Shown: positions 878 to 61,892 of the stretch, piece by piece | How positions within the stretch are numbered: the first letter of the stretch is position 1 | Layout of the letters: every line of letters begins with the position of its first letter | Assembly: GCF_001649575.2 (NCBI RefSeq) | Contig: NC_051444.1 | Span: forward strand, 22,219,287 to 22,283,286 | Direction of reading: 5' to 3' | DNA from: Kryptolebias marmoratus | Taxonomy: Eukaryota; Chordata; Actinopteri; Cyprinodontiformes; Rivulidae | Length of the DNA stretch: 64,000 bases | Translations under genes and position numbers: made by a program | The notes under the pieces: model-generated | Database searches by the model: none | The model's input: the letters and a program-made list of their open reading frames with translations, nothing else | What the model was told of the DNA's origin: nothing

Positions 878-1147
878 TCAGAGAATTTGCTTGTGGTCCT
901 TCCATTCGATGACTCGGGCGGGTGGGGGGATGTTGGCAGGAGAGCAAAGCAAGCTCTCTGAAACGGGTTTAATTTGAGAGCTGTGGAAAGTCGGATGGAT
1001 CCTCATGGACGGTGGCAAGTGAAGTCTCACTGCAGATGGGTTGATGACTCTTTCAATGGTATATGGACCGATGAACCTGGGTGCCAACTTTCTGGGAGTG
1101 TCCTTAATGTTGATGTTGTGTGTAGACAAGCATACCTGCTGACCCTC
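878..1147 (-). pseudogene. Ty3/gypsy retrotransposon integrase C-terminal remnant
   Basis: Read on the minus strand from the gap edge at 1147, it encodes a typical integrase tail with KLAPRFIGPYTIERVINPSA and IHPTFHSSQIKPVSES, as in teleost gypsy elements. The frame stops at 878, before the chromodomain usually found in this group. The 5' part would be in the gap. Confidence 0.8.
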
Positions 1148-19487: not shown

Positions 19488-19548
19488 ATGGAGCGACAAA
19501 ATGAGCCAGTCGGGGGCTCGACCCAGCGTGATGGCCCAGAGGAGCGCG
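19488..19548 (+). CDS. ano1: Proposed first coding exon of ano1 (start codon to donor)
   Basis: The ATG at 19488 opens 20 codons (MERQNEP...) and stops at a strong donor, GCG|GTAAGA, leaving one base. The next supported exon at 27835 needs exactly one base (G+GT = Gly), so the phase fits. No other ATG in this frame occurs after the in-frame TGA at 19371-19373. I chose this start because of the donor, phase and GC-rich promoter-like setting, not because of protein similarity: the first 70 residues of anoctamins vary too much to recognise. An alternative start is the ATG at 27891 in exon 2, which has a better context (GCCATGATG). Confidence 0.55.
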
Positions 19549-43500: not shown

Positions 43501-46500
43501 GACAGATTTTGAAACCTAGATGCTCCAAACAAAATGACAGCCTTTGAATTAGTAGCAATATATGTTTTCACATGCAAAAAAGGTAAAGAAAAAAAGTGCC
43601 ACTATATTGGACAAACTCATACTTTTATGCTACTGTCACTTCATACAGCAACATAAAGGTATGAAATGTTTATGATTAGTCTGCTGTCACCATATGTAAA
43701 GAATTAAAATGATTTTTTGGTTCTGTACAGCCAGGCAAAGTCCTGTTAGCCCATAGTTTTGGTTCATTATGAACACACTGCTCTGCTTAAAATGCACAGG
43801 TAAAAATTTTAAATCCACTTTTTGTCAAGAACTTTTAAAAACTTAAAGAGTGAAGACTCGATTTAGCTACTAACAGGAGAATGAGGGCTAATATTACTCG
43901 TTTTCTGCTTGTGAAAATCTAAGCTGCTATAAATCGTGAATATTTAGAAACTGATTGGGGTGAAAACATTTTCAAGATGCCATCCCAATTTTTTCAGCTC
44001 AAAACTTTTCATCTTTAAGTAGCAATTTCCCATCAGAGCATTGAAAATTTCAAGTTGATATTGTCTGATAAATAAAATATCTTCACGAAAACCAGCAAAG
44101 AAAAGAGGTGCTAACCCGTATTATTACCAGCTCAGGGTAATTTGAATAAGCAGCTTCATCTAAACAACCTTCTGAATTATTAAAACCCAGCATGGAGAAG
44201 GAATAAACATCTGAGGGTGAGACAAGCCTATAAAGCTGTCTGAGTTAAATACGGCAGAACAGCTTTGGAGCGATGCTGTCTGACTGCATTCTGCTGAAGC
44301 CCCCATCCCTCACTTAGTCACCCCCGCCCTCGGGCCAACAAACAGCAAGTCTGACTCACAGGACATTTACATTTTCTGAACACTGTTACTGAGGAGGAAT
44401 CACAGCTTGAGTAACAGGATGACAGATTAGCCGTCCACAGAAGTCGGGACTTTGTGGATGCAGCAGCATGTTTAATCCCAACGAGTGAAGCCGCCTTCAC
44501 ATGCAGCATCAAAGAAGAACAATGTCTTGCCCTCGGCCTGCTGGGATGTATGGAGGAGAGAGTGGGCAGTGAGTGGCTATATTTACAGCTCTGACTAACA
44601 GCTAGCAGGAGATCTCCCTCCACACCTTCCCCGTCTCCTCATCAGATCTGAAACCACTCCAGGCCGGTTCCCCGAGAATAAACCTGTTTACAGATTCTAC
44701 TTTAATCTGGCTTTCAAAGCACCCCAGCTTTATCTTCTGGGTTTATTCCCCTACACTGTTACAGTGCTGTCAGATCTTAATCTCACACACACAGAGATTG
44801 AGTAATCTCTTCACTCAGACTTCTCATATGAATGAGGTCCGTGGGTAAATCCAGAGCTCCAATCAATGGCAGGTTATGGATTGTTGTGTCAATCTGTCGC
44901 ATCCAGAACATCACCCCCTGCTTTGTTTTGGTGAAAACAACTTTCACTTCAGTTTTACACTTTGATCACTGTTCTTAATACAACATTCTGCTGATTTATG
45001 GGATTTTGTGAGGTTTTGTTTGGGATGCTTTTTTTTTTTTCCTCCTGAACTATTTTGGATTAGTACCTCTAAGACATACAAACAAACAGTTTTGGAAAAA
45101 TTGGTAGTTTCAAAATTAAAAATAAAAACAAAATAAAAGGAGTAAATAATATCTGAATAAAAAAATAAAGAATATTTCTGAATAAGGACAACAGGTTTAA
45201 TTTGAACAGAGTAAATGATGTGCGGTGAAGCCAATGTCCCAACACGAGGACGCAGGTTCTCAGGAGGTTAAATCTGTTTCATTTCAGTTTTTTTTCCCCC
45301 TAAACCTTGCTAATCGTTTAATTGAATTTAATTAATTCAATCGAGTTTGTTTATGTAGTGCCAATCGTCAACAGGTGTCCCCTCAGGACATTTTAAAAAA
45401 GAAAGAGCAGAGAAAAGCAAATGGGTCTAATTTATGTCAAATCACACGCAATTCAATTCCATCCAGAACGGATCCAGGTTCAAAACCTATACAGTTTAAT
45501 TTAATCCAATTATAACAGTGTAATTAGGTTCAGAATATCACAAAATGCCTATAAGTGAAAAGTTGTCCATTTAAGGACACCAGTAGATTCCACCATGAGC
45601 AAGCATCTACAGCAAAATAAGAAATAACAGGGTTATAGTCTGGCACTCTTCAAAGGTGATCTTATTCTTACCCTAAAGGTAAAAACAAAAACACATAAAC
45701 CTCACTTATGGAAAGCTCATGTTTTTACACGTGAATTAAAAAGTAGCATTCCTTGAAGGAATGCATTTAGTCCACCACATTTCATGACAAGGTTTTAAAC
45801 AAAGATGTTACGTAATCTGGTAACACCCAAAGTATCTGTAGAGGGCACCTTTCAGGTAAAATCACACCAAATTTTAGCTTCTTTCTATAAAAGTAACAGT
45901 GTTTTCCTCATGTTATTACGTGTTAAATCCATGGCACCTTTGTGCAGTTTTCCTTAATGGTTTCTTTTTTTTTCAGCTCTTTTTCTGAAATAGCTCTGGA
46001 GTTTGAAGAAAAAGTCTGTTTTTACAGCCATGTGTCTTACCTCGTTTTATTTCTCTGCGTCTGACACTGAAACTGAACCCGTTTTTTGTTCACTTCCCAG
46101 ATTTGATCTGTCTGACAGAGACAAGTTCTTTGACAGCAAGACAAGAAGTTCAATAGTAAGTATAAGTCTTCCTAGTGATCGGCCGTTTAAGGGGGAACCG
46201 TTTCCATTTACATTCTGAGAATAAACTAATGACTGCAATACCCATGCTCATATATAGGCGTTTTTCTACATCTAATATACCCTTTATCCATCTTGCTTCT
46301 TTAAGCAAGGGAGGGGCTCCTTTGGCCTCTGCACAAAGCCATAACACCTACACAGAACTATCCAGTACCTCACTAATGACTAGATAATGTGATTGACCTC
46401 ACAGTATTGGATGGAGCAGTCCTTGGCTCTCGGTTGTGCTTCAGCTCACATCAATAAAACTCTGTGCAGTTCTTTGTATTTTACAGCTTCTGAAGTCGAC

Positions 46501-49500
46501 GTGAAACTCTGGCTTTTGCCTGATTTTATTTTTGTCCATCTGCTTCCATTTCTCTTGTGTTATAGCAAACGAAAAAAACTAATCAGCAGCTGTGTTTCTC
46601 CCGTGTCTTTGTTTTTAAGGCTGCTTTTAAGTTTCGTGTTTGTTTTCTTTTACTTTTTAATGTGTTTTGTTGTTTCTCCAGGTTTATGAGGTACTGAAGA
46701 GGACAAGATGCACGAAAGCCAAATATTCCATGGGTAAGGCTCCCGATCTCACCCATACAGAATAAATAAACATCTTTTGTATGTTTAGTCCTGTGTTTCT
46801 ATAGGGGTCCTTAAAATGAGGCCAAAACAATTGGAAAAAAAAAAAAAACACACAAAGCAACTTGATTTCTACTCTGTAGTCAAATCTGTTTCTCTACCCA
46901 TCTGAGGAGCTCTTTCTCAGTTCCACAGTGGAGCGAGTGGCGTTCAAAGCTTTAAACTGCATGAGACGCTCTGTTTATGCAAGCTACATTCACTTTCTTA
47001 AAGTTGACCATGACTCCAAAAAGTTCAAATTAAAGTTCCTTCTTGATCTTTACCCAAGCAGAGAAATGGTCAGATCACCAAAACAAAGTTCATATTTTAG
47101 ACATCTCTCACCACCGTTAGAACAAATGCTGACATTATCTGCGTTTAGATCTTTAGGATTTCAGGAATTGCAGATTTAATCTATAATTTTAGACAGATCA
47201 TTTCTTACAGCTATGTTGTGTTCCTATTATTGGCCGAGGTAAGGCAACATGGCAGCTTTTCTAAAAGGGATTTTTTTTTTTTTTACTTGGTAAAAACCAT
47301 GATAATGAAGGATTTAAAGTATTTTGTTTTGGTCAAGAAATGAATCATGAAACAGTTGCAGCAAGTCTGTCATATGTATCCCATCCTGAGCTTCGCTGAC
47401 ACGTTTTCCAACTGGAGCAACTACTTGCAAAGTGTTTATCTGGAATTCCTCTGACTAAAATATAAAAAGGAAAAAACTCCATGATAGGTTTTGATGTATT
47501 CTTGTAAATGTCCTTCCACATCGGTTTTTATGATAATTGCAATTTGTCAATTTAGCCGTCTTACATGGTTTTTTCTGGGCGTTACTGCTGTGTGTGTGTG
47601 TGTGTGTGTGTGTGGGTGTGTCAGGGTTTTAATCTTATTGCATGATCCTGTGTTCAGGGATCACCAGTCTGCTATCCAGTGGTGTCTACACAGCTGCTTA
47701 TCCTCTGCATGATGTGAGTACAACACATTCAATCACATTTTATTTCTCGGGATATCAGGAAATCTCCTCCCTGTTTATGTTTTGTCTTCATAAAACTTCT
47801 TTCTAAAAGATGCAATAATCACTCTTGAACAATGTTAATTTATTTATTTTTAGTTTATTTAAAAAAAGGTTAGATGTGATACAAAGTTATTTCATTTTTT
47901 TATCTCACTTTCTCAACATTCTGATTTGGTAAGACATTAATTGAAAACACTAAAGTGTTTTGTTAATTAACTTTTTGCTTTTAGGGGAGCTTGAATTTTC
48001 TTTAGTCATGTTTCAAATAAAAATTCTTTCAGATCAGCTTTTGACTTTCTCTTAAAGCCCAGGCATGGCCCCATTTGTTTCATTTTAATCCCCTTCCCAG
48101 GAATCACTAACTGTTTTTACTAAAATAAACTGATCGCACAGGAATACCATGACTACATAATGAAAAAAGCTCCTTGTGTGCTTAATAAACACTGCTGCAG
48201 ACGGCACGCTCTGACAACAGGACGATAAGCTTAATTTTCTAATGTAATTATAGCTATTTTTCTTTTTGGCACTGGTACAAATAGATTTAAGGAGGCAAGG
48301 AACAAACAAACAAGTTTTAAAAAGTCATGAAAAAGTAATGCGCTTTGGCGTTTCAATTGATTAAAAAAAAAGTAACCCTAAATTGTTGGCGTGTCCATGT
48401 GTGTGTGTTACAGGGAGACATTGAGGGGCTGAATGCAGAACTTAATGACAGAAAGGTAAGTGAATGATCCGATTAAGTCTAAATCATCAATTCAAAGACA
48501 AACAAAACTACACACACACACATAACAGTGCAGCTGAGAAAGCAGTAAGGAAGTGGCCTTTTGTTTGTGTGTTTCAGCTCACTACATGTTCATGCGCCTC
48601 AGTGGCAGCCTTTCATTGAAATACACAAACTCAAAGTGTCTCACATATGAAAAAGAAGGCCATGGTTATGTATTCTAAAAAGGGTTAAGTAGCATCTATG
48701 TAATTCACAGATCGTGTTTGTTTTTCCTGAAGAATTCCAAAGTAAATGGGCAAGTTTATTGTTATATTTATGCTCAGGGTTTGAGAAAAGTCTGACATTA
48801 GTTTCAAAAAAATGAAACCAGCAGTTATTGTAAAATAGTTTGGTTCTCCATCTGGAGTAGGCCACAACAAAATGCTACCCTCACTGTGACGCTAGCTTAA
48901 CATTTATTTTATTAGTATAAACATGTTAATTTAAAGGCTTAGCATTCCTTGGAGGAAAGAATACGGCCTGCCGCCTTTCATGCCAGAGTTTGAAACCAAA
49001 ATCATGGCATTGTAGCCAGTTTGGGCAAAACCTGAAGATAACATTTACACACAATGTCATGGGACTTCACAGGATCTTGTGTGATCTGTATGTGTTGAGA
49101 GTTGTTGTCAGCTACATGACATTTTAGCCGATTATCTGCAAAATTCTCTGACTTGTAGCCATTTTTGTATTGGCTAAGGTTGATCAGCTGTTAAAGTGAA
49201 TTGGGTTGACTCCAAAAGGTAATCAGTTGTACCTGTACTCCAGCCTTCTGCTGTGTAAGAAACAAAATAACAACTCAGTTGGAAAGACGCAGTTATCGCG
49301 AAGGCAGCAGAGTCATAAGTACTCTTCTGTTCTAGCAGGATCCTGAGAAAAGCGTCACCTCGGTGCGCCACATTAGCATCCTCGTATCATGTCCAAGTGT
49401 ACCTTTTGAAGGAGGGGTGCTTGGTGAGAAGTGGGAACAAGAGAAGGAAGATTTCATCATTGTTTGCTCTCAGGCTCAGCCGTGCCGTCTGTACACTCCG

Positions 49501-50401
49501 CTGCTCCTCGGCGAAGAAACACCTTCTTTTGTCGCTTTGCAGCTTGTTTCTCTGCCCGTGAACGGGGTGTGTAATTACGTGTGAAAATGTTCCACCGACT
49601 CAGCTGAGATGTGAATGTGATATTCTCCTTCTAGTTGTAGGACGGAGCGGAACGTCTACGCGGAGCACGAATGCAGTCATCTGCTCATTATTATTCAGCA
49701 TGACTGATCGCTCAGCAGTCATTTGCATAGAAATATGTTTTATTCTGCGGTGCTTAGATCACAGCGGAGGTGTGATGCGTGCTGCTCTTCTGTGTGTGTG
49801 TTTTTATTTTTTGTTTGTTTTTTCATTATCATACTAAATTATGATACAGTGGATCATATCGTCCTCCTCTTTCACACCATCCCTCTGCATGTCCTCCTTC
49901 AATACATCCATGAACCTTTTCTGTGGACTTCTCCTTTTTCTTCTCTCTTGAAGCTCCATATTCAACATCATTTGTCCAATATGTTTGCTATCCCTCCTCT
50001 ACACATGTCCAAACCATCTCAGCCTCTCTAATTGTGTCTCCAAACATGAGCTGTCCCTCTGTTCGACTCATTTCTAATCATGTCCAGTTTGATCCCTCCC
50101 AATGAAAATCCGAACATCTCATCCTCCTGTCTTTTTGCAAGTGCCACCATCTCCAAACAAAGAGAGCTACAATTCCATTATTTTTCAAAAAAGAATTATC
50201 TTGGTGTAAAACTTGAGCATGAAAGGCAGAGAGCGATGTGAATTCCCTCAAAGAACGCTACGTCTTTCATTTTATCTGAACACCTCCAATGCATAGTTAA
50301 CATTAAAAGTTTTTTTTCTCTTTTTTGTTATACTTGAAACTAAACCTGTTACTTTACTGTATATTAATGATAAAATTATTAGATTAATCAGTGTGTAACC
50401 A

Positions 50402-50462
<61 letters not shown>

Positions 50463-53400
50463 ACAAAAAGTATCAAAACTTTTCTTTGTTCCATTTGTTT
50501 TGTAGAGGGAGGAACTAAAGCAACTTGTTTGACATCACACCTAAAGAACAACCAAATTTAAAAATAATCAATGATCCAGTCCTGTACTGATGTATGAGCT
50601 TTAACAGTACTTGTTGACTCTGGGTTCTCTTCACAGCTGCTGTATGAACAGTGGGCCAGCTACAGCGTCTTTTACAAGTACCAGCCTATTGGACTCATCA
50701 GGTTTGTAGTTCTCTTGTCAAACCCATCGGGTGAATTACATAAACAAATCTGCTAGAGATGGTACTTTTGCTACATCAAAAATAACTTTATCTGCTGGCA
50801 GAAAAGGTACTGTCTCACTGGGCTGCGACGAGTTACCCATCAGCCTTTTTGAGGGAGTCTCCTGAATGTGTTGCAACATTGTTTGGGGTTCTCAGTTTCC
50901 TCGCTTGTGTCGCAAAGGTGCGCTGTCCTGTCTCTTGAATTATGAACATGTTGCACCAAATTTTCTCCCAAAACAGTCAGTCAGGTGTCACGAAGAGTCT
51001 CAAGAGCACAATAGCTGAATTATCACAAATGGATGGGAGCTCTCTTTACACCACAAACATGTCCAGGTCTAAAAGCCATGCTGATGAAAAATGATAATTT
51101 TTAAAAACTGGACCACATCTGCCTGTTTTTTTCATTTCTAAAGTGTTTTCCTGCTAATTAAATCATAAAGCCAACAAAAGGATGTAATCAGTCAGATTAA
51201 TGCAGCTGTGAAACTGGAATGAAAATGTGATTTTTAGTAAACAACTTCAATCTAATCACATCATTTCACTTTTTATGGAAAAGTTCATTGAGTGCTTATA
51301 TATTGACCACAAATACTTTTCCACAGGAAGTATTTTGGCGAGAAGGTTGGCCTTTATTTTGCCTGGATAGGAGTCTATACACAGATGCTTATCCCTGCCG
51401 CCATCGTTGGAGTCATTGTGTTTCTCTACGGCTGCGCCACGGTCGACGATAACATACCGAGGTACGCTGCTCGCACACAACGGGGGAAATGGTTATTAGA
51501 TCTCCTGCTGAGTTTGACAGCTCTTTGGTCTTTGCCCATGGTGATTGATGGGTTGGACTGGAAGAAATGGGTTGTGTGTTTTGTTTTTCCTCATTTCTTT
51601 TAAAAGAAAAAAAAGAAAGTTGAGTCTACAGCTAGCAACCTGCACCCTGTTCTAGTATGCTAAAGACAAATTTGGTCCACTTTTTATTAAGACTTGATTT
51701 GCATACAAAATGATCTGAAGCATTACCTCATTTTTAGATAATAAAAGTGTTGACACAATCGAGATGTTTTGCAGTGCGGCTTCAGTTTTGGGAAATCGTA
51801 GGTGTAGACCACACACACCCTCAAAACAGCTCCACCTGTTCACACACAAACACCAAAGTCATTAACGGACTTCACTTGTAAAAAGAGAGTCAGTTCAGGT
51901 TAGGCAGTGTGAAGACGCCATCAGGCAAATATTCAATATATTTTATTTTTGAGTCAGTGTGATGAGTTTTAGGGTAAAATTTACTTAATTTTTTACAAAA
52001 AAAAATCATCAATTTATTTTATTGTTCATAAGTTTATTTCACTGGCATGCTATAAAATTGTTTTATCCAAACTCAGAAACACAGTAAAATCCTTTAACCT
52101 TTTTTTTTTTTTTTACTTGCTATAAATAATAGAATTGCATGAGACAGAGCACGAGCTAACTAACGGGACTGATTTGAAAATCACCCTGTGTAATGTTCTT
52201 GTTTTATTTATTTATTTATTTTCTTTTTCCATGCAACTGAATCTAATAATTTATTCTGATGTCTCAATTTTTTTTCTGTTCTCCTACGACTCATTAAATC
52301 GATCCTTTATCCGTCTCTGTATTTTTTTGTTGTTGTTCTTTTTTGGAAGTATGGAGATTTGCGATGCCAGGAACAACATCACCATGTGTCCGCTCTGCGA
52401 CAGCGCCTGCAGCTACTGGAAGCTCGTGACAGCATGTGGCACGGCTCGAGCAAGCCACCTGTTCGACAACCCAGCCACGGTCTTCTTCTCCATTTTTATG
52501 GCCCTGTGGGGTAAGAATGCCATCACATCCCCCCCAAAAAAAACCTCTATGGGAAAATAGTTCAGATCCCACCTGCAGACTGGTGAAACGTTTGCCCAAT
52601 ACAAGGTGCGCAGCTAAGTGGTCCTCTGTTTCGGCTAATAACTTGGAAATTAACCTCTTTCTGTAGAGCTCTGACACCAACTTGAATCCTGACATCAAAT
52701 TTGCAACACAAATTCACTAGACTAACACACAGAGAGCCCTCTTCTGATGTCCTGCCAAACTTCGCAGCCATCTGTTAGCAGCAGCAGGGCTTCAGACTGC
52801 AGAAGTGTTGTGTTCAGATGAAGCTGGTATCTGACAGCGTCACCGCATGACAGCCATCTGGATTCATCTGCTGCTGACCCGAGGAGGCACAATACCACAA
52901 AAACAGCCTCTTTTTAAAAAACGGTATAATCAAAGGAAACAACATCACTTTAATAACAAAATGGCTACATGGGTGTGTCCATAAATGCAGATGAGAAGAC
53001 TCGCCTTCATGGTGCTGGGCTTTCTCCCATTGACTAATTTACACATCGGACCAATACCAGCCGAAAAATATTGAAGCCTGTGCTTCACAAAAGGATAAAT
53101 TCAGTTTCTTTGTTTGGCCAAAACAATCAAATTTAAATTTTACCAATCATTTTGTTGTTAGAAGTTCTCCGTGAAGTAAAAGCTCCAGGTGTGAGCTGTT
53201 GAGCAAAGTGGTGATGCCATTTGGAAGAGAAGATGGTGGACATGCAGGAGACTGTCCACTGATCCAAGTTTGTTGGTCTGACATGAAAATTGGACTGAGT
53301 GGGATTTAGGCTGGTTTAACATGTTTTAGTGAATTTTACAATTCTGGTTTAGTCAAACTGATGCAATAATTCTACTTTTAGAAACCTTATCTGAACATAT

Positions 53401-56400
53401 ATTCGTGTCTTTTGACGTACTTTGGCACTCGGAGTGGCTACGCTGCAGTGTCATCAGAATGGGCCTGAAAAACTCAGTGACACACTTAATCTGAAGGTTT
53501 CAGAGCTTTGCTATCAGATGGGAGTAGTATTGAAGTAGACACTCAGTGACTGTAGGCTGACCTTGTGTACAATTTCCTGTTTTTTTTTGTTTTTTTTTAG
53601 CCATTCTGTTCATGGAGCACTGGAAGAGGCGACAGATGCGGCTCAACTATGTCTGGGACCTGACAGGCTTTGGAGAGGAGGAAGAGGTGAGAAACCCCAC
53701 TAATACCTTTTTATGTGCCATTTACAGTAATAAAACCAGATTAATAAAAAAGTGTTGGAATATTTGAGCTGTTTGAAACATTCTCATCTTGATGTCACAC
53801 TCCAGCCCTCAATTAATTATCTTTACTTTGGTGTGGCTGAGTCTACTAATAAATATTAATGTAAAGAAAGAAAACAAAGAGCAATAAGATTTTTTTTTCT
53901 TTTTTTGTAAAAATAAAATACCATCTCCTCCCCCTCGGACAGTGTAAGATGTCCAACTAAAGTTCAGGAGTAGCACATTTGTTCCAACTAATTTGGGCTG
54001 AGATTATATATATATATACATATATAGTATCAAAGGGAAACACTATGTGCTAGCTGCTTTCACATACTGGGATGTCACCTATAACAGTAAAGATGCATTT
54101 TTGCACAAAATAAAGTCCAGTAACAGATGTTTGGATTGTGTCAGGTCAGAATGTGATGATAAATATTATTATTTAGTAAGTCAGCCAAGCTAAGAGTCGG
54201 ACATCAGCATTGGATGTTCTTCAAATACATATAATACATACCTTCTGTGAACCCGTATGTGTATGTCTCTTTTTATCTATTTATCTTTTTTATCTGTTTA
54301 TTTGTTTTATCTATTTCCTTTTTACTGTTTTTTTTGTTTTTTGGGGGGTTTTTTCTATCTATTGTACAGCACTTTTGCTACCCCTGTGGTTTTTAAAATG
54401 TGCTATATAAATAAAGTTGATTGATTGATCGATATAATGCAATAAAACACTGAAGTTTCTTTTTGTAAAAGTCTTGTTTCTGAGCAGCTCTAAAATCAAC
54501 ATGGAAATATTCCCATCTTGAGACACTGCCTGCATTCTGACATCTTTATGTTTGTGTGTCTCTGCTGTATTTTACAGGAGGAGCATAAGGTTTGAATCTG
54601 TTTTTATTTTCCGTTCGTTGTATTTCAGCTGACCGTCTTATTGACTCACTGTTTCAGATCTGTTCTCCAGCTGCTGTTATCTCACACCCTCTCTTCCTCA
54701 GGTGTCTAACAGTCTGCCTCAGGTCCTTTAAGTGGACACCCTTCTTATTGCTTCGAAGCTGTAGAAGATTTAACATTTCACCTGCAGCCCCTTTCTGCTC
54801 CTCTCAGGCTCATCTTGGTTTCTTGCCGGTTCTCATACGACGTTCTAATCTCCTCTGATAACAGATGGTCTGGCGGTCAGATGCTCTGTTGGCTCAGCAC
54901 TATTGTCTTTGCTCTTATCTTTGGCCTTGATTTTTCATGTTTTTCCAGTATTTAAGTTGCAGAGGTTTCTGACCTCTTGGCTAGAAATTAGTCATGATCT
55001 ATCAAGACACAAGCTGATTGTAACAACTTAGATTGAAGGTATTAAAGAAAGTGACCTTTTTATTGCATGTTGCTGCAGATTTCAAATTCTTGTGGAACAG
55101 AATTATCATATTTTTAACTTTTACGCTTGAGTTTGGAGGATTCTTGAATTGTTAAGAAATGTACTGATTGTAGTAATTATTTATAAGTGATGTGAATCAA
55201 TGATTTAAGCTAAAGAAAATATCCAGTTGAAGCACGAGGCTGCCCCTCCTGAGTCTGGTTCTGCCGGAGCTCTCTTCCGGTTTAGAAGAGGGTCTCCTCT
55301 CCGCTGTCACCTGTGCATGCTCAGAACGGGAAAATAAGCAGAAGTGAAGTAAATGGATGTAACGATCCAAAGCAATGAAATGGCTTTCTTTGCTAGGCAG
55401 CTCAGTTTTACAACCTGGGTTTTTATGTTGATTTATTTCCTGAATCTGACTGTATTAAATGGGTTGAATCTGAATGCCTGAAATAATTTTTGAAATGAAA
55501 GTTGTTCTATTTTCCACATAGCACTCTGAGGCTGCTTTTATTGTGAACTAATGCCACACAAATGAACTGAATTGAATGAAAATGTTGAAAATGCACTTTG
55601 ACGCGAGTCTCTGTTAAAACCACAGAATGACCTGCTCTGCAGTTACTCAGCTCCATGTTTTGACATTTTCAACAGCATTGAGCCTTTAGCGGCAAACCAG
55701 AGGATGGAAGAAGAGAAAATATTATTATTACACTCATCAAATAGCCATAAATTCAACCCCAGATCTTTCCCAGTTTCACTGGCGAAGTTGATATTCATGG
55801 AACAGAGCTTTTTTTTGTTGTCACTTTGCCAATTTAACTCAAAACTGGAGCAGGTTTTTAATGAATTTTTTGTTCAAGTACTGAACACTGAAATAACCTG
55901 ATTCTGAACGACAAATTGAAGCGACTTTTACCCACATTGGGATGTTGTTGGAAGTCTGTTTTCATTCTTTCTACCTGCCACACAAACCTTCAAGCCAGCA
56001 GTGACGGTCTAACCCTCGGCTTCGTTTCCTCTCTAACTGCAGACATCCGTCTTCTGGGTTCAGTAATGCTGGTCCATGTGCACACATTCACTCACTACTG
56101 GCTGCATATTAAATGGACGTGTAACCGCATTCCTTAATCTGAAAGGATTATTTGGCTCACTAACGTTTGGAGATTTGTATGCTAATGATTATCACTTGAT
56201 TGGAAGGAGGCTCACATTTGCAAAATGGAACAAATTGATACAGAACATACCTTGGCATAGATGCACAAAACTTGCACTGCACCTGGTTTTTGCTCAATTA
56301 TTTGTTCCCGCTGTCTGCTCCGTCTCAGCGTCATATTCACCAAACAAATAGTGCTATTTCCCATGAAATTCAGCAGGTGCGAGCAGTTTGCACTCTTTCT

Positions 56401-59400
56401 CCACATTTTAAATATGACCGTCATCATACAGTCACTCAGTTTTATGTAAAAAAAAAAGTTATTTAAATGTTTGGTCATTAACATCTCCCACATTTTAATT
56501 CACAAACTCAACTTGTAAACCATGTAGTATGAGTTCTGATGAACTGAATATTAATTGGGGTTATAGCTATGCCATTCCAACACAGTACAACATTTCGGCT
56601 TTAGTTTGAAGTGTGCCATATAATCCTTTCATGATCAGTTGATGCAGTTTTATTTTATTTTATTTTATTTCACCGTGCAATGTCTCACACACAAAAAGCT
56701 TATTCTGCTGAACTCCAGAAGCCCACGCTGTTGTTTTCATTCTTTCCTCTATGCTGAGGTGGATCTTCATTGGCGTCTAGCATCCTCTAACATTTACTGT
56801 TCAGCTAATCAACAGAATGTTTAAACACATTAAGCAAACTGGTTTCCTCTTGCAGGACCACAACCGAGCAGACTACGAGCTCAAGGTCATGGAAAAGACG
56901 ATGAAAATGGATCAGTCGGCTCCAAAGGTAGGATCAATCGATGTTGCACCTTTTTCGTGGGTTTTAAATCCATTTCTGCTCAGTACTATGGGTCTCATGT
57001 CAACAATCTGAGAAAACAAAACCTTCCACAAATCATTGCTTTAACCACTTTCAGACTACGTTTTAGAATATTTCACTCTTCGGCTCGATTCAGGCACACT
57101 TGATAAAAGTAACAACATAAAAGGTACTTTCAGCAAGCTGCTTGGAAAATGGGAAATGCACAGGAAAAAGACTAGAAACACTTCAGAAACTGTAACCTAC
57201 ATCAGCCGAACCATTCAGGTGATGATTATGCATACAGCATTGAAGGGGTCACAAATAAAAGATGATGCAGAAATTCTTGCATTTACTTGGAACTGTCTTT
57301 CATTCCAAGACATTTCTTGTTCTGTATCTTTAACGTCATTTAGTTAGTTAATATGCATCCATTCCTGCATGTCAGTCCTGAAACACATTCTTAAAAGTTT
57401 TGTCAGAAGCTGTTCCAAGCTATTATCTTTTCTCTGCCCCATAAACTCTCCTAATCTCAATTAAAGGACATAATCAACAACAATGAGAAAAGCAGTCAGG
57501 AAACAACAGTTCTAATTAGAGCAGTAATCACATTTATTGGCAGCTTAATCTTGATGGGGGGAAAAGTGTTAATGAGACACTGAGACATCTTTGTGCGAAG
57601 CGATATGTCCTGAGAGTGAGGAGGCCGCATTTAACACAATGTCCTCGTGATGAGGTTCAGAACCAAGAACCAAGCCTGTTCATGCTAAATTTCAGCCCTC
57701 TGGCTGTTGTCTTTCTCTGCACCAAGGTCACATCTTTCCTTTCATCAAGTAAACACACACACACACATACAGATATGCCTGAGCTTCCTGACCTCATTCT
57801 TCGTGGACCTGAATGTGACATGGTAGCTCGGGGTGGCATTAGCTCTGCTCCACTGGAGCTCCAGTTTGCGCACACTTGTGGTGGTTTAAAGAGCTACAAA
57901 CAGACAGACATGAGGCTGTAAGATGAAAAACACACGTCTTAAACACACAGCCGGAGATACTTCAAAAATGCTTACTATTTAATCCCTTGATGTGTGAGCG
58001 CGTGCACTTGTTTGTGTGTGTATTTCAGGAGGAGAAAGTGAAGCTGACTTGTACGGACAGAATGCCAGCTTACATGGCCACTGTGGCCATGATGATCTTC
58101 ATGGTGAGATTCTGCAGTCTCCCCTCACATTCAGACAATACAGTTTGTTCAGGTTTTTTTTACCAAAAACAAATTATTCAAACTGTTTCTGACTTTAAAA
58201 TGAGGTGAAAATAAGACTTTCACACACACAGTGAGTGAGAGGACATAAAAACGAGTGTCAAGTATCAAATTTTGGGGGAAAATATGTAATCATCAGTCTC
58301 TGAGGATGTCTATTCAGCTGTAGTAAAAAAAATAATAAGCAGCCTCATAGAAAACATACATAATGAAACAGGAAGTAGTCATATAGGCATGCAGCTACTG
58401 TGTCTGCCTTACAATAAGGGTAATGTCACGGTGTTTGGTTGTTTGCATCACTTTTCATCGTCGGATGTTCAGCAGATTGTCACACTGAGTGTTCTGCCCA
58501 CGTTTCCCTTAGATATCTGTGACCTTCGCCATCGTCTTCGGGGTTATCCTGTACCGGATCAGCATTAAGGCAGCGCTGCACGTCAGTAGCTACCCTGCAG
58601 CCCGTTCCAACATCCGAGCCACCGTAAAAACCACAGCTGCCATCATCAACCTCATTGTCATCATCATTCTAGACGAAATCTATGCCAAAATCGCTCGCAA
58701 GCTTACAGAAATGGGTGAGGCACGACTTGTTGTTTACACGTGGTGGGTGGGGTGGGCAGGGTAGGTGACTTTTAAGCCTGACAGGATAAAAAGGAAAATA
58801 CTGCAGCATGAAGAGTTTTATCTGGTGTCTCCTGCATCCTGAGATGATTGAACAGCACTGCACAGACAGATGTGCATTGCTTTATTGTTTTGAAAAGTAT
58901 TTTTATTAATTCTGATAAGCATTCCTTTAGGGACTGCTGCCCTTCATACCGGAGTTTTATACTAAGATCATCTTATGTTGAGGAAATGTTAAGGCTGGTT
59001 TAGTAAAATTTTGCAATATTGTAAAATGTTGCCCAATCTGTTAGTTCTTAGAGTATGTGTTGTAAATGACTACCATATCAATTTTTAACTCTGTATTTTT
59101 CAATTGAGTTATAGCCATTTGTGTGTTGGGCAATGTCACGTATCTGTTGTGGCCATTTTGAATTGGCAATCTAAAAGTTAAGTTTAATTTAAATGCAATA
59201 AGTGCTAAGTTCTTTTGGTAATGGACGAACAAGGTTGACTCCAAAAGCTGATGCCAACGTTTTAAACAAAGGAGCATTCAGAGTATGTTTTGGGAATGAC
59301 TCTCAGCTACTGCCCCACCAAAGATTTGCTCAATATCTGCAATATTTGTTGACTTAAAGCAATTTGTGTTTTCTAAGGTCTATTAGCTGGGGGCAGCCAT

Positions 59401-61132
59401 TTTGAATGAGATCGACTTCAAAAGTTAATTAGCTGTGGATGCACAACCAGTAATTACTTTCTGAGAGTTTCAGTAAAATCTATTTTAATATTTCACTGAT
59501 AACATTTGAATGGTTTTACTAAACAATTTAAAACAAGTGAACACACAGATTTGCTGTTGTGGTCTCGTGTATACATTACAGAACAACTACTGAGTGAGTT
59601 AGTTTGTACTTACAGTAATAAGTATGTGTGGTCTGTGTTTCAGAGGTTCCAAAGACAGACAAGAGTTTTGAAGAGCGCCTCATTTTCAAATTGTTCGTCT
59701 TGAAGTTTGTCAATGCCTTCACACCCATTGTCTACTTGGCCTTTTTCAGGGGCAGGTAAAACATTATGATGACTCATTTACCTAAATCCAACATGTCAGA
59801 GGGATTGATGTACCTCACATATTTGTCATGAGTGTTTCTCTGTGTGTTGTTTAAAATTGTGTCATTACCAAACTGCTTACCCCCCAGCTTTTCTCTTCTT
59901 ACTGATGGGTGTGTTTGTTCCCAGGCTTGTTGGGAGACCTGGAAACTACTTGTATGTTGTTGGATCATACAGGATGGAGGAGGTAATTCAGTTTGACTAA
60001 AGTTTAAAACTGATTATATAATTTATTCTGTTTTTTTTTTTTTTTGGTTGCTCTGGTAGGGTTTGTGAAACCTTTTTTAAAAAGTTAAAAAAGAAAAAAA
60101 AAATCCAGAGTATGATGGCACATTAGGCATAAATAATCATGTGAGGCAAAGATAGACAGAAAAGTTTAGGACACGTTTGTCCAATTAGTTGGTGCCAGGT
60201 GTTAGTGTCAGGATTGAGTATAAAAGGAGCATCAACTTTGCAGCTTTGTTTCTTCTGAGATGAATCATAGCTATTGACCATATGTAGAAATACTGGGACA
60301 AATACAGGAATCTGAAAGTTGAAGCTGGAAAAGGACCATTTGTCCCCATAGGCTGGTCTCAGGACGAACCCCACATCCCTAGTTTAGATGCTAGTTCCAA
60401 AAATAAAACATGGTAGCGTCCATAAACCTGGTCCTGGTTCTTCAATTCCCAACAATGATGATCATAACTCATATCTTTGTCCCAAATTAAATCAAAAAAG
60501 TTTTTACATATGAATTTGTTTCTCTCTGCAGTTCATGTCAACCTATAAATGGACTATTTGCTATTCAACAGAATACCTTAAGACCTATGTCAATCAAATA
60601 AATTACTGATTTTCCCCAATTGCTCTCATTTTCTCATACTGCTTGCACTTCTTTGCAGTCCTCACAGTCAGCTCTTTGAAACTGCCTTCATGCTTCATGT
60701 TCTTCGGCTTCAATGCATGTCTCTGTCGCCTTCTAACATTTGTCTTTTTCTTTGTCTTCCCTCCAGTGTGCTCATGCAGGCTGCCTCATGGAGCTGTGCA
60801 TCCAGTTATGCATCACCATGCTGGGGAAGCAGCTCATCCAGAACAACTTGTTTGAGATTGGCATACCGTGAGTGCTGGTGTATCTGACACATACAGAACA
60901 AGAGCTGAACAAAAGACCCTTACAGGTCACTGTATGTGGGTTTAGTAAATCACAGAATATATTAAGCCCACCCACTCACTTGTACTTGCATTTGAGAGGA
61001 GTCAGATAAACGTCTGTCTGGTTTTCAGGCTCTTACCTAGAAAAAAAACACTTTGCTGAGCTCTTTGCAGTCTACAATTTTCTCTGATGTCCTGTCAGTA
61101 CAGTCGTCTGAAAGTGATGAAAGTGTAGTTCA

Positions 61133-61194
<62 letters not shown>

Positions 61195-61892
61195 TGTAAC
61201 ATATATACTATAACAATATATATACTGTTTGATACTGTTTGAACAAAAGCTTCATCCTGAATACAGTCCCATGTCTGGAAGTCTTCAGTATTGTAGTATT
61301 ATCAAGTCAACATCAATAAAACTGATGCTTTAAACTGTTTAAAGAATAAAAACTGAACAAAACAAACAAGAAAAATCTATTACACTTGAACTAATTAACT
61401 TCTTGATCAAAATAAATGCTCTTTCATTTTTATTTCCATTCATTTCATAGTGTTCACATCAGTGAGTAATGTTCTCCCGTTTTTTACTAATTATGTTTTT
61501 ACTTCACTCATTGAACAGCGTTGAGTTTTCTTGACCTCAATTATTCTTTTATTGCTTCGTTTGTTGTCAGAATCCCTTCATGGTGTGATGATGGAGAATT
61601 AAACCTCCTTATTAAAAGTCCACTTAGTAGTCACACACAAGAAGAAACAAAAACATTTCATAAACTAGACTAATCCATGTATTAAACAATAGTCTGTACA
61701 GACTCACCGGTAGCCTTTAGAATAAAACTGAATGGTTCTTGTTATGTTGCAGGAAGCTAAAAAAGCTTCTTCGTAAGAGGAAGTCAGAGGTGACGTCAAT
61801 GCCAGAGGAGGATCTAAAAACGTTGCAGCGCTTTGAGAAGGATTACTTCATGGGTCCGTTTGTTGGCATCAACCCCGAGTACATGGAGATGA
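19488..61892 (+). CDS. ano1: Anoctamin-1-like calcium-activated chloride channel (TMEM16 family), 21 exons, 3' end outside window
   Basis: The product is a plasma-membrane anion channel opened by cytosolic calcium; ANO1 family members act as homodimers with one pore per subunit. I join 21 exons (listed separately) into 739 complete codons plus one base, all with GT-AG introns and matching phases. Visible in order: variable cytosolic N terminus (residues 1-160), conserved dimerisation/cytosolic domain with motifs such as KIHAPW, SREKQHL and [15 protein letters not shown] (160-365), helix 1 (about 365-390), a cysteine-rich extracellular loop with an N-I-T sequon (400-435), helix 2 (about 437-460), an acidic loop, helices 3-6 (about 523-690) and the start of helix 7 (735-739). 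Calcium-site residues equivalent to mouse N650, E654, E702 and E705 are present; the helix 8 pair would be in the next exon. ANO1 rather than ANO2 is favoured by [27 protein letters not shown] and GVYTQMLIP. Which teleost ano1 duplicate this is cannot be told here. Mammalian comparisons are from memory. Confidence 0.93.
20310..20735 (+). repeat. Interspersed repeat family, near-complete copy in intron 1
   Basis: Runs from gtttgtgtgtctgttaccaa through ctcataaaccactgaacaga, gattaacttttggagccaat and aagatggatgccacagct, ending ggaatgctaggcctttatta. It is the most complete copy in the window and preceded by a poly-A/poly-CT tract (20265-20294). Confidence 0.75.
20899..22910. mobile_element. Possible DNA transposon with inverted ends, about 2.0 kb
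   Basis: The left end agcccccttcacaccaga (20899-20916) is mirrored by tccagtgtgaaggggggttt (22892-22911). No transposase is recognised between them and the flanking duplication is not clear. The contents, including 22100-22290 with repetitive agaca-rich text, are unnamed. It may be a non-autonomous or decayed element, or chance. Confidence 0.4.
22960..23176. mobile_element. hAT-type MITE, 217 bp, 8-bp target duplication
   Basis: Imperfect inverted ends (catgggtgtcaaactcctgg at the left; cagagtttgacatgtg at the right) are flanked by a perfect duplication ATGTAGAT at 22952-22959 and 23177-23184. No coding capacity. Confidence 0.85.
23185..24930. other. Intron 1 sequence, nothing recognised
   Basis: No exon with a recognisable product, no named repeat. 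Confidence 0.5.
24935..25430 (-). pseudogene. Tc1/mariner transposase remnant
   Basis: The minus strand reads DLNPVENL, stop, [20 protein letters not shown] and KWVKNSS, the C-terminal catalytic region of Tc1-like transposases, with in-frame stops and frameshifts. Terminal repeats were not found. Confidence 0.75.
25855..26255 (-). pseudogene. Second, distinct Tc1/mariner-type transposase remnant
   Basis: The minus strand reads [16 protein letters not shown], then [10 protein letters not shown] and [13 protein letters not shown], in the order of a Tc1-like DDE transposase (WA..., W-ETLG, DNA-PCHT region). Several frameshifts; the element is dead. It lies 0.4 kb from the remnant at 24935-25430 in the same orientation but is a different subfamily. 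Confidence 0.7.
26930..27420. repeat. Decayed LINE-type 3' region fragment
   Basis: Contains tgaaacaactgaggctgacc, aagtattttacagt and later gggccagaccatttaaaact, a pattern common in fish non-LTR-derived repeats. Class not determined. Confidence 0.4.
27835..27986 (+). CDS. ano1: ano1 exon 2 (N-terminal cytosolic, variable)
   Basis: A pyrimidine-rich acceptor (ctctccaccag) and donor ATA|GTAAGA bound a frame encoding GSPPFSS...[15 protein letters not shown]...NNESI. It ends in phase 0, as the next exon requires. The acidic, low-complexity character fits the unconserved N terminus of ANO1. A well-placed ATG-ATG pair at 27891 could serve as start if transcription begins downstream of exon 1. Confidence 0.75.
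27987..32085. other. Intron 2 sequence, mostly unrecognised
   Basis: Holds a (GT)n tract at 30357-30378 and short open frames without family resemblance. Confidence 0.5.
30357..30378. repeat. (GT)n microsatellite
   Basis: Eleven GT units, followed by an imperfect GTGTGTG stretch. Confidence 0.9.
32090..33235 (+). pseudogene. Rex3-like LINE reverse transcriptase remnant, interrupted by a MITE
   Basis: Plus-strand frames give [13 protein letters not shown], then [29 protein letters not shown] and [10 protein letters not shown], the reverse transcriptase core of Rex3/RTE elements. FADD is the catalytic motif. Further on are [13 protein letters not shown] and EFKYLGVLF motifs in shifted frames. 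Frameshifts and stops make it inactive. A 214-bp MITE interrupts it at 32933, after which agagctggaagaggtggc and a (GATG)n tail follow. Confidence 0.85.
32933..33146. mobile_element. hAT-type MITE, 214 bp, nested in Rex3 remnant
   Basis: Inverted ends (caggggtgggcaatcctggt and the complement aggattgcccaccgctg) pair over about 45 bp. A perfect duplication CTCTAGAA lies at 32925-32932 and 33147-33154. Because the LINE continues on both sides, this insertion is younger than the LINE. Confidence 0.92.
33236..34872. other. Intron 2 sequence, nothing recognised
   Basis: No named repeat or exon before exon 3. Confidence 0.5.
34873..35202 (+). CDS. ano1: ano1 exon 3 (start of conserved cytosolic domain, basic insert)
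   Basis: This 110-codon exon lies between acceptor cttctag and donor GGG|GTGAGA. It carries the first recognisable family motif, [15 protein letters not shown], and ends with [22 protein letters not shown], close to the ANO1 sequence [15 protein letters not shown]. Between them lies a strongly basic, serine-rich stretch (residues about 103-133) with RRRSS and [14 protein letters not shown], longer and more basic than the matching part of mammalian ANO1. Confidence 0.95.
35203..38028. other. Intron 3; possible transposon end near 36672-36715
   Basis: The text ggggtgtgaatacttttgca, then ttccactgta resembles the terminal region of fish Tc1-type elements, but no partner end was found. The rest is unrecognised. 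Confidence 0.35.
38029..38127 (+). CDS. ano1: ano1 exon 4 (cytosolic domain, KIHAPW motif)
   Basis: A phase-0 exon of 33 codons between acceptor atttcag and donor AAG|GTGCTC. It encodes [20 protein letters not shown] and MKLKMPTKK, nearly identical to the ANO1 cytosolic domain. Confidence 0.96.
38550..38743. mobile_element. hAT-type MITE, 194 bp, 8-bp target duplication
   Basis: Same family as the MITE at 32933 (shared caggggt...aatcctggtcct ends and accttcttcatgttct-like core). A perfect duplication ATGTAGCA lies at 38542-38549 and 38744-38751. Confidence 0.92.
39500..39651 (+). CDS. ano1: ano1 exon 5 (cytosolic domain)
   Basis: Starts after ttcttag and ends at CT|GTGAGT in phase 2. It encodes [17 protein letters not shown] and ends in [11 protein letters not shown]. 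The first half differs from mammalian ANO1 as is usual; the SREKQHL end is conserved. Confidence 0.94.
40140..40460 (+). repeat. Interspersed repeat family copy, intron 5
   Basis: Contains ctcataaaccaatggattat, attgacttttagaaacaact, aagatggccgccacagcc and ends ggaatgctaggcctttaatt. Confidence 0.7.
40680..41000 (+). pseudogene. Tc1/mariner-type transposase C-terminal remnant
   Basis: Plus-strand frames give [13 protein letters not shown] text, then [10 protein letters not shown] and WDAIQQ, stop, [20 protein letters not shown], the end of a Tc1-like transposase, with an in-frame stop and frameshifts. Confidence 0.65.
41160..43365 (+). pseudogene. L2-like LINE remnant with degraded endonuclease-linker and reverse transcriptase
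   Basis: In shifting plus-strand frames: [66 protein letters not shown]-like and FADDT-like text, then [19 protein letters not shown]. The order matches the L2/CR1-type ORF2 of fish. Many stops; it ends in a 3' region with acattaaagtgacaaagaaa. It fills a third of intron 5. Confidence 0.8.
45330..45560 (-). repeat. LINE-type 3' tail fragment
   Basis: The text attcaatcgagtttgtttat, gtagtgccaat and later gcaattcaattccatcc matches the common fish pattern near LINE 3' tails (TTTATTTATATAGCGCCAA), reverse orientation. Confidence 0.5.
45735..45905 (-). repeat. Interspersed repeat family, partial copy
   Basis: Begins tagcattccttgaaggaatg, followed by catttcatgacaaggtttta, the inverse of the family's 3' end. 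Confidence 0.55.
46101..46155 (+). CDS. ano1: ano1 exon 6 (FDLSDRD segment)
   Basis: A 55-nt exon after acceptor cttcccag, ending ATA|GTAAGT. It encodes [18 protein letters not shown], matching the ANO1 [18 protein letters not shown] segment rather than ANO2. Confidence 0.96.
46682..46733 (+). CDS. ano1: ano1 exon 7 (VYEVLKRT segment)
   Basis: A 52-nt exon (acceptor tctccag, donor ATGG|GTAAGG) encoding [17 protein letters not shown] and the first base of the following glycine. The family form is [18 protein letters not shown]. Confidence 0.96.
47589..47614. repeat. (TG)n microsatellite
   Basis: Thirteen TG units in intron 7, just before exon 8. Confidence 0.9.
47658..47713 (+). CDS. ano1: ano1 exon 8 (cytosolic domain, YPLHD)
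   Basis: A 56-nt exon (acceptor gtgttcag, donor GAT|GTGAGT) encoding [19 protein letters not shown], the helix-rich segment just before the acidic GD loop of ANO1. Confidence 0.96.
48414..48455 (+). CDS. ano1: ano1 exon 9 (GD...NDRK loop)
   Basis: A 42-nt phase-0 exon (acceptor gttacag, donor AAG|GTAAGT) encoding [14 protein letters not shown]. The ANO1 equivalent is GDYNGENVEFNDRK, so length is conserved while the loop diverges. Confidence 0.95.
48935..49240 (-). repeat. Interspersed repeat family copy, intron 9
   Basis: Starts aaaggcttagcattccttgg, has tttcatgccagagtttgaaa and ends gttgactccaaaaggtaatc, the inverse of the family consensus seen at 20310. Confidence 0.7.
49850..50165 (-). 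pseudogene. Non-LTR retrotransposon reverse transcriptase tail, remnant
   Basis: The plus-strand text (accatccctctgcatgtcct, tacatccatgaaccttttct, cacatgtccaaaccatctca) is the reverse of a widespread fish LINE C-terminal region; the minus strand can be read as a RWFGHV-type end with frameshifts. Class uncertain. Confidence 0.55.
50175..50275 (+). repeat. Interspersed repeat family, 3' fragment
   Basis: Contains aattatcttggtgtaaaact, tgagcatgaaaggcagagag and cctcaaagaacgctacgtct, the family's 3' end. Confidence 0.55.
50405..50460. repeat. (TA)n microsatellite
   Basis: About 28 TA units in intron 9. Confidence 0.95.
50637..50701 (+). CDS. ano1: ano1 exon 10 ([12 protein letters not shown])
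   Basis: A 65-nt exon (acceptor cttcacag, donor AG|GTTTGT, phase 2). It encodes [21 protein letters not shown] and completes an arginine with the next exon. It precedes helix 1. Confidence 0.96.
51327..51461 (+). CDS. ano1: ano1 exon 11 (transmembrane helix 1)
   Basis: A 135-nt exon (acceptor ttccacag, donor AG|GTACGC). It encodes [20 protein letters not shown] followed by [20 protein letters not shown], that is the pre-helix and hydrophobic helix 1, then DDNIP at the start of the extracellular loop. Confidence 0.97.
52350..52510 (+). CDS. ano1: ano1 exon 12 (cysteine-rich outer loop and helix 2)
   Basis: A 161-nt exon (acceptor tttggaag, donor TGGG|GTAAGA). It encodes [20 protein letters not shown] followed by [20 protein letters not shown] and the helix 2 core. 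The five cysteines of the loop, which form disulphides in ANO1, are kept, as is an N-I-T sequon. [15 protein letters not shown] is the conserved start of helix 2. Confidence 0.97.
53601..53686 (+). CDS. ano1: ano1 exon 13 (end of helix 2, acidic inner loop)
   Basis: An 86-nt exon after a long T-rich acceptor (ttttttttag), ending GAG|GTGAGA in phase 0. It encodes [17 protein letters not shown], then [12 protein letters not shown], the first intracellular loop that precedes the alternatively spliced segment c in mammals. Confidence 0.96.
54330..54435 (+). repeat. LINE-type 3' tail, 140 bp before the microexon
   Basis: Text tctattgtacagcacttttg, then gtgctatataaataaagttg and a (ATTG)n tail, the usual end of L2/Rex1-type fish LINEs. 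Confidence 0.7.
54578..54589 (+). CDS. ano1: ano1 exon 14: 12-nt microexon (EEHK), equivalent of segment c
   Basis: Between acceptor attttacag and GT lie exactly 12 bases, GAGGAGCATAAG, reading EEHK in phase 0. Mammalian ANO1 has a 12-nt alternative exon at the same place (segment c, EAVK). The flanking exons end GEEEE and begin DHNRADYE, as in ANO1 (EEEE-EAVK-DHPRAEYE). The donor AAG|GTTTGA is weak, which fits optional inclusion. Skipping it keeps the frame. Confidence 0.85.
54590..56855. other. Intron 14, nothing recognised
   Basis: No named repeat or additional exon seen. Confidence 0.5.
56856..56927 (+). CDS. ano1: ano1 exon 15 (inner loop after segment c)
   Basis: A 72-nt phase-0 exon (acceptor ctcttgcag, donor AAG|GTAGGA) encoding [18 protein letters not shown] and DQSAPK. 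It matches the ANO1 loop DHPRAEYEARVLEKSLKK. It joins directly to EEKVKLT in the next exon, so this loop is shorter than in the longest mammalian isoform. Confidence 0.94.
58029..58103 (+). CDS. ano1: ano1 exon 16 (approach to helix 3)
   Basis: A 75-nt phase-0 exon (acceptor tatttcag, donor ATG|GTGAGA) encoding [20 protein letters not shown] and MMIFM. Mammalian ANO1 and ANO2 have LTW before the DRFP motif; here the codon at 58050-58052 is TGT (Cys). Confidence 0.95.
58513..58714 (+). CDS. ano1: ano1 exon 17 (helices 3 and 4)
   Basis: A 202-nt exon (acceptor cccttag, donor ATGG|GTGAGG). It encodes [17 protein letters not shown] (helix 3), the outer segment ending RSNIR, then [18 protein letters not shown] (helix 4). 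Residues equivalent to mouse R515, R535 and N546 are kept. The equivalent of V543 is Ala, and an extra lysine (ISIKAAL) lies in the outer segment. Confidence 0.97.
58915..59480 (-). repeat. Interspersed repeat family, long (two-unit) copy in intron 17
   Basis: Begins aagcattcctttagggactg, has two inverse copies of the gattaacttttggagtcaa core (near 59232 and 59410) and two aatggc-type blocks (gtggccattttgaatt, gcagccattttgaatg), as in the tandem copy at 12010. Confidence 0.7.
59644..59755 (+). CDS. ano1: ano1 exon 18 (helix 5)
   Basis: A 112-nt exon (acceptor gtttcag, donor AG|GTAAAA) encoding [18 protein letters not shown], then [20 protein letters not shown], helix 5. The pore-lining equivalents of K588 and N591 are present; the V599 equivalent is Leu. 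Confidence 0.97.
59925..59982 (+). CDS. ano1: ano1 exon 19 (helix 5-6 loop)
   Basis: A 58-nt exon (acceptor gttcccag, donor GAG|GTAATT) encoding [19 protein letters not shown]. The arginine of SYRMEE is the equivalent of mouse R621. Confidence 0.96.
60767..60867 (+). CDS. ano1: ano1 exon 20 (helix 6, pore and calcium-site residues)
   Basis: A 101-nt exon (acceptor ccctccag, donor CC|GTGAGT) encoding [18 protein letters not shown], then [16 protein letters not shown]. The helix 6 calcium ligands (N650 and E654 in mouse numbering), the glycine hinge G644, K645, E633 and Q637 are all kept. The hydrophobic gate position I641 reads Thr (codon ACC at 60815-60817), and PGG before helix 6 reads HAG. 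Confidence 0.97.
61135..61191. repeat. (TA)n microsatellite
   Basis: About 28 TA units in intron 20. Confidence 0.95.
61753..61892 (+). CDS. ano1: ano1 exon 21 (helix 6-7 loop, start of helix 7); last exon in window
   Basis: A 140-nt exon (acceptor atgttgcag, donor ATGA|GTGAGT). It encodes [20 protein letters not shown] and, after a charged stretch, [11 protein letters not shown]. The two glutamates of PEYMEM match the calcium ligands E702 and E705. It ends in phase 1; the expected next exon (family motif QFGFVTLF) is not found before 64000, so the gene runs off the window. Confidence 0.96.

Follow-up and report, generated by a model that had tools for sequence, protein, structure and literature searches.

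The threonine that stands at the position of mouse Ile641 in the ano1a channel of the mangrove rivulus, Kryptolebias marmoratus, is, as judged from sequence comparisons, a long-kept natural variant of the pore gate that is common to the close fish relatives examined, and not a sequencing error. Its position makes it notable, since, in the hydrophobic-gate model published for TMEM16A, Ile641 is generally the residue with the strongest effect (PMC7862301). The reading that we lean towards is that of a remodelled gate, in which Thr641 would lower the barrier to opening and co-fixed neighbours would restore closure, leaving the channel shut at rest.

The ano1a gene and its TM6 exon

The gene in the window (the whole stretch of DNA that was analysed, 64,000 nucleotides) is ano1a, one of the copies in teleosts of the Ca2+-activated Cl- channel TMEM16A/ANO1. 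Eighteen hand-spliced coding exon segments at 34888..61892 (+) encode 659 residues in an intact frame, with GT at 18/18 segment ends and AG at 17/18 starts; the lone start without AG belongs to the first segment, which was begun within its exon, the true exon start lying a few codons upstream. Further upstream coding exons are found at about 19488-19550 and 27834-28000, and the gene runs beyond the window end. The spliced product exactly matches residues 77-735 of P0001, a public protein named 'anoctamin-1a isoform X2 [Kryptolebias marmoratus]' that possibly comes from the same assembly as the window and would then not be independent of it. Remnants of transposable elements also occur in the window, namely a reverse transcriptase fragment (PF00078) at 32186-32644 (+) and a Tf2-1-like SH3 domain (PF24626) at 878-1147 (-).

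The family assignment draws on several comparisons. P0001 contains the anoctamin (PF04547, E 7.9e-153) and anoctamin dimerisation (PF16178, E 7e-63) domains; a search of P0001 against NCBIfam gave 0 families, and Rfam gave 0 matches. The window ano1a is 65% identical to mouse ANO1 across its 659 residues, and P0001 is nearer to mouse ANO1 (65%, 1268 bits) than to human ANO2 (55%, 996 bits). The TM6 exon alone scores 50.7 bits against ANO1 and 16.2 bits against ANO6, ANO2 being absent among the solved structures found. A structure predicted from a 24-sequence alignment reached a mean pLDDT of 35.5, which was too poor, and it was discarded. In the published record, a Ca2+-activated anion conductance has been described for zebrafish Ano1a (PMC12364550).

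The exon at the start of TM6 (60767..60867, +) encodes 33 residues plus two bases of the next codon, is bounded by an AG acceptor and a GT donor, and matches P0001 exactly. Its peptide aligns without gaps to residues 625-658 of mouse TMEM16A (PDB 5nl2), placing the in-frame ACC codon at 60815..60817 (+), which is residue 672 of P0001, at residue 641 in (ac) numbering, the core of the hydrophobic gate in TM6. All of the flanking anchors (Q637, G644, K645, N650 and E654) are present in the exon. The earlier note had read a Thr at the I641 equivalent, and the in-frame reading, the canonical exon and the gapless alignment confirm it. That note had also named misalignment and sequencing error as ways in which it might be wrong; the first is refuted by the gapless alignment and the second by the same Thr in P0001 and 118 further clusters, the named ones all from other fishes. 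With an intact frame and canonical splice sites in addition, there is next to no probability that the Thr stems from an error in sequencing or assembly, from a pseudogene or from misalignment. An alternative TM6 exon with Ile was considered and rejected, as tblastn of mouse ANO1 against the window found only one TM6 exon. The intron directly past this exon holds a perfect (TA)28 microsatellite at 61136-61191.

Distribution of Thr641 and the changes fixed around it

Scoring of 7989 candidates gave 3310 matches, the best 120 of which form the fish set. Thr641 is found in 119/119 of these fish clusters that have the residue, P0119 having none there. The clusters (79 named anoctamin-1a, five unnamed and the rest with other names) were assigned to ano1a by name or similarity rather than from a tree with ano1b, and several are isoforms of one species. 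Ile641 is found in 166/166 other ANO1 clusters, nearly all from mammals with one named bird (Calypte anna), in agreement with the claim of the earlier note that mammalian ANO1 keeps Ile. These 166 combine 120 clusters from an ancestor-like query, which listed rodents and unnamed clusters, with 46 new ones from a second, fish-biased query, which listed mammals, unnamed clusters and the named bird; they are not independent, as many are isoforms of the same rodents and two represent mouse ANO1 chains in the PDB, one of them with I551A. For ANO2, one human sequence has Ile as well.

The fishes with Thr641 include Chanos, Hoplias, Coilia, Esox, salmonids, Lepidogalaxias and many percomorphs. Because Thr641 is found from Chanos, Hoplias and Coilia to Esox, salmonids and percomorphs, it looks long constrained; its origin probably predates the divergence of Otocephala and Euteleostei, and it has been retained ever after. 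From its presence in related orders, we infer that zebrafish ano1a also carries Thr641. Among the 286 proteins compared, none is named ano1b and none is named as coming from a non-teleost fish, so the alignment of teleost orthologues that the earlier note had proposed gives its answer for ano1a-like clusters, which all have Thr where the residue is present.

Thr641 is one of 39 fixed differences that separate the fish clusters from the other ANO1 clusters, counted over columns in which each group is at least 97% constant. Those near the gate are S592A, Y593F, F597V, V599L, K603R, S639C, I641T and F712M. In the window, the Cys at mouse Ser639 is encoded by TGC at 60809..60811 (+), with C in 119/120 fish clusters (P0119 has a gap) and S in 166/166 others. 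The Phe at mouse Tyr593 is encoded by TTC at 59718..59720 (+), with F in 120/120 fish clusters and Y in 166/166 others. The site of F712M falls past the exons identified in the window, and its Met state is taken from P0001 and other proteins (117/120 fish clusters, with three gaps). The Ala at mouse Ser592, the equivalent of TMEM16F Y563, is encoded by GCC at 59715..59717 (+); this change is not specific to ano1a, as the one named bird sequence and human ANO2 also have Ala. In sum, hydroxyls are lost at 592, 593 and 639 in the fish clusters and one is gained at 641.

Other parts of the gate are kept. The TM4 gate residues Leu547, Ile550 and Ile551 are present in the window at 58651..58665 (+), and I550 and I551 occur in 120/120 fish clusters; position 547 is L in 108/120 and V in 12/120. 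The triad Ile550/Ile551/Ile641 therefore retains Ile at 550 and 551 and has Thr at 641, and such a gate may still work like one built of three isoleucines. Phe589, Gly644, Lys645 and Gln649 are likewise kept in the fish clusters. Of the Ca2+-site residues, N650, E654, E702 and E705 were read directly in the window (Asn650 and Glu654 at codons 60842-60844 and 60854-60856, +), and the 120 fish clusters retain all six, including E734 and D738, except for gaps in 1-3 clusters per site and one E702D.

Several other positions vary in or near these segments. Val547 (equivalent to window 58651-58653) comes from six species: Poecilia reticulata, P. latipinna, Cyprinodon tularosa, Oryzias latipes, Hippocampus comes and Cololabis saira. 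Beside it in TM4, at position 546 (Asn in mouse), two Takifugu clusters have Tyr, and Cyprinodon tularosa and Syngnathus scovelli have Ser (P0070, P0074, P0082 and P0109). Also in TM4, mouse Thr539 is replaced by Lys (AAA, 58627..58629, +), with K in 120/120 fish clusters and T in 166/166 others, which makes T539K a new fixed positive charge; K603R is likewise fixed. Directly before TM6 (window 60773-60778), P627H and G628A are nearly fixed in the fish clusters (117/119 and 116/119). Leu647, which together with Ile733 has been described as linking gate and Ca2+ site, is replaced by Phe in Hippocampus comes, Syngnathus scovelli and Oryzias latipes (P0089, P0109 and P0113).

Fixed changes appear to cluster at sites implicated in the closed state, although this post hoc test is suggestive only. 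Of the seven published closed-state sites (550, 551, 589, 593, 596, 641 and 712), ano1a differs at three, for which P is 0.0038 over 580 columns, a value that becomes 0.032 when the seed site 641 is left out. When limited to columns conserved in both groups, the values with and without the seed are 0.016 and 0.081, and when changes are polarised with human ANO2 they are 0.0008 and 0.011.

The interpretation given in the earlier note is thus partly supported. Its gene family, alignment and residue were right; its restriction of the change to this one fish channel was wrong, as Thr is present in all 119 close fish relatives that have the residue. It also missed the co-fixed shell, the Thr being no isolated change. 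Because S639C, Y593F and F712M are fixed with Thr641, an analogy with single mouse mutants is unsafe.

Predicted and reported gating

In the published model, Ile550, Ile551 and Ile641 form the hydrophobic gate, and a secondary closed-state zone of Phe589, Tyr593 and Phe712 branches from Ile641, with Ile596 and Tyr593 as the partners of Phe712 (PMC7862301). Alanine mutants of the gate isoleucines have a left-shifted EC50 and basal activity, with Ile641 generally giving the strongest effect; each methyl at the gate contributes 0.83 +/- 0.21 kcal/mol, and more hydrophilic substitutions in the triad make Ca2+ more potent, the fractional contribution of hydration being 0.37 +/- 0.11 (PMC7862301). 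The maximum open probability is also substantially raised by I641A (PMC7862263). The claim in the earlier note that smaller or more polar residues ease opening is therefore backed by the published V and A substitutions at Ile641 and the hydrophilic ones in the triad. The same residue, numbered I637, belongs to an inner gate common to TMEM16A and TMEM16F (PMC6478717). Site 641 does not follow size alone, because the bulkier I637F also raises apparent Ca2+ sensitivity, in addition to altering selectivity (PMC6704070).

From the constants of PMC7862301 together with hydration energies, the change from Ile to Thr alone is estimated to favour opening by about 2.6 kcal/mol (1.8-3.4), compared with about 2.5 for I641A. 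An uncompensated Thr641 is thus predicted to ease opening about as I641A does, and a leak would be expected. Taken literally, this is the reasoning of the earlier note, by which ano1a would be leaky, constitutively active or less selective, and it finds parallels in the basal currents of mouse TMEM16A I641A (PMC7862301) and in the altered selectivity of I637F (PMC6704070). We nevertheless consider such a channel improbable. In CHO-K1 cells that express zebrafish Ano1a, the iodide signal was 0.230 under vehicle and reached 0.701 when ionomycin was given; in a companion panel, all with ionomycin, it was 0.250 for empty vector, 0.662 for the zebrafish protein and 0.679 for that of mouse (PMC12364550). 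These data show no sign of a leak and no flux beyond that of mouse Ano1, the assay being coarse. Zebrafish myotubes at +80 mV carried 2.70 pA/pF without Ca2+ release from the SR, compared with 114.55 normally (PMC6328546). The small flux in CHO cells and the small current in relaxed myotubes without Ca2+ therefore argue against strong constitutive opening, and hence for compensation or a small effect. Moreover, mouse I637K opens the channel without Ca2+ but does not convert it into a scramblase (PMC6478717), and so even a charge at 641 has bounded effects. Of the altered gating or selectivity that had been suggested, the former thus remains an inference whose direction is likely right, and the latter is without direct support for Thr.

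A small effect is what would be seen if Thr641 were near-neutral, with its hydroxyl tied to the helix backbone, a volume almost that of Val, fixation by drift and gating like that of mammalian ANO1. Among 39 fixed differences, one more need not be adaptive; the zebrafish ANO1 current is a bona fide Ca2+-activated Cl- current with outward rectification (PMC6328546), and ionomycin flux is alike for zebrafish and mouse Ano1 (PMC12364550). Against this, gating of the mouse channel shifts with changes as mild as I641V and I641A, hydrophilic changes in the triad raise Ca2+ potency (PMC7862301), and the occurrence of zero Ile among 119 fish clusters (of the best 120) argues for constraint. We therefore regard near-neutrality as unlikely, if well short of negligible.

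The remodelled gate that we prefer rests on the following link: because Thr is predicted to ease opening, yet little zebrafish current is seen without Ca2+, compensation by neighbouring residues is suggested. Thr641 would lower the hydrophobic barrier of the closed neck, its hydroxyl perhaps bonding to the backbone of its own helix, and the missing hydroxyls at 593 and 639 together with repacking at 712 would re-stabilise the closed state. The net product would be a channel that is closed at rest, yet compared with mammalian ANO1 it may need less Ca2+ to open or may open more quickly. A more specific version, in which Y593F, S639C and F712M epistatically permit the polar Thr641 and the repacked gate responds faster or more sensitively to brief Ca2+ transients than that of tetrapod ANO1, is put forward only tentatively; the about equal ionomycin flux of the zebrafish and mouse proteins gives no backing to the idea that the fish channel opens more fully. 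If true, this version would represent a natural solution to an open problem, the balance between leak and efficacy at the TMEM16A gate.

Roles in which such gating might be placed have been described in fish. Both ANO1-a and ANO1-b are expressed in zebrafish muscle, ANO1-a being the form of red muscle and ANO1-b that of white muscle, and muscle action potentials are briefer owing to the ANO1 current (PMC6328546); gill expression of ano1 in teleosts is higher in seawater, as cited in PMC11993260. The available parts of these two sources do not tie the muscle and gill roles to residue 641.

Relation to known TMEM16 channels

Searches of the open-licence literature, one of them weak (the whole word TMEM16 misses TMEM16A), found no electrophysiology of I641T or of ano1a alone and no print record of a Thr641 gate variant. 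Judged by the alignments, Thr641 is a genuine variant in the gate of a known channel, present in all close fish relatives examined that have a residue there. Together with its fixed shell it forms a natural mutant cycle, which bears on whether hydrophobicity is needed at the core of the gate or just summed over the whole of it. Caution is also called for, as fish ano1a may misreport mammalian ANO1 gating or the pharmacology of gate sites.

The closest known system is mouse TMEM16A/ANO1 (PDB 5nl2, 5oyb and 5oyg), which shares with the fish channel the Ca2+ ligands, the Gly644 hinge, Gln649, Ile550 and Ile551 but has Ile641, Ser639, Tyr593, Phe712 and Ser592 where the fish clusters have Thr, Cys, Phe, Met and Ala. 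The laboratory mutants I641A/V and I637K of TMEM16A change the same site to a smaller or more polar side chain, as does the fish Thr. However, such gate mutants are single changes in a mouse background, whereas the fish gene has fixed changes in neighbouring residues, and Thr was not found among the substitutions in the papers searched. The inner gate of TMEM16F (F518, Y563 and I612) includes the homologous position, which is Ile in the aligned TMEM16F PDB chain; TMEM16F is a scramblase in which I612Q gives a modest gain of function (PMC6478717), and ano1a has Leu or Val at the F518 equivalent. Finally, zebrafish ANO1-a and ANO1-b are Ts3R duplicates, and ANO1-a, a Ca2+-activated Cl- channel of red muscle, is the named counterpart of ano1a (PMC6328546).
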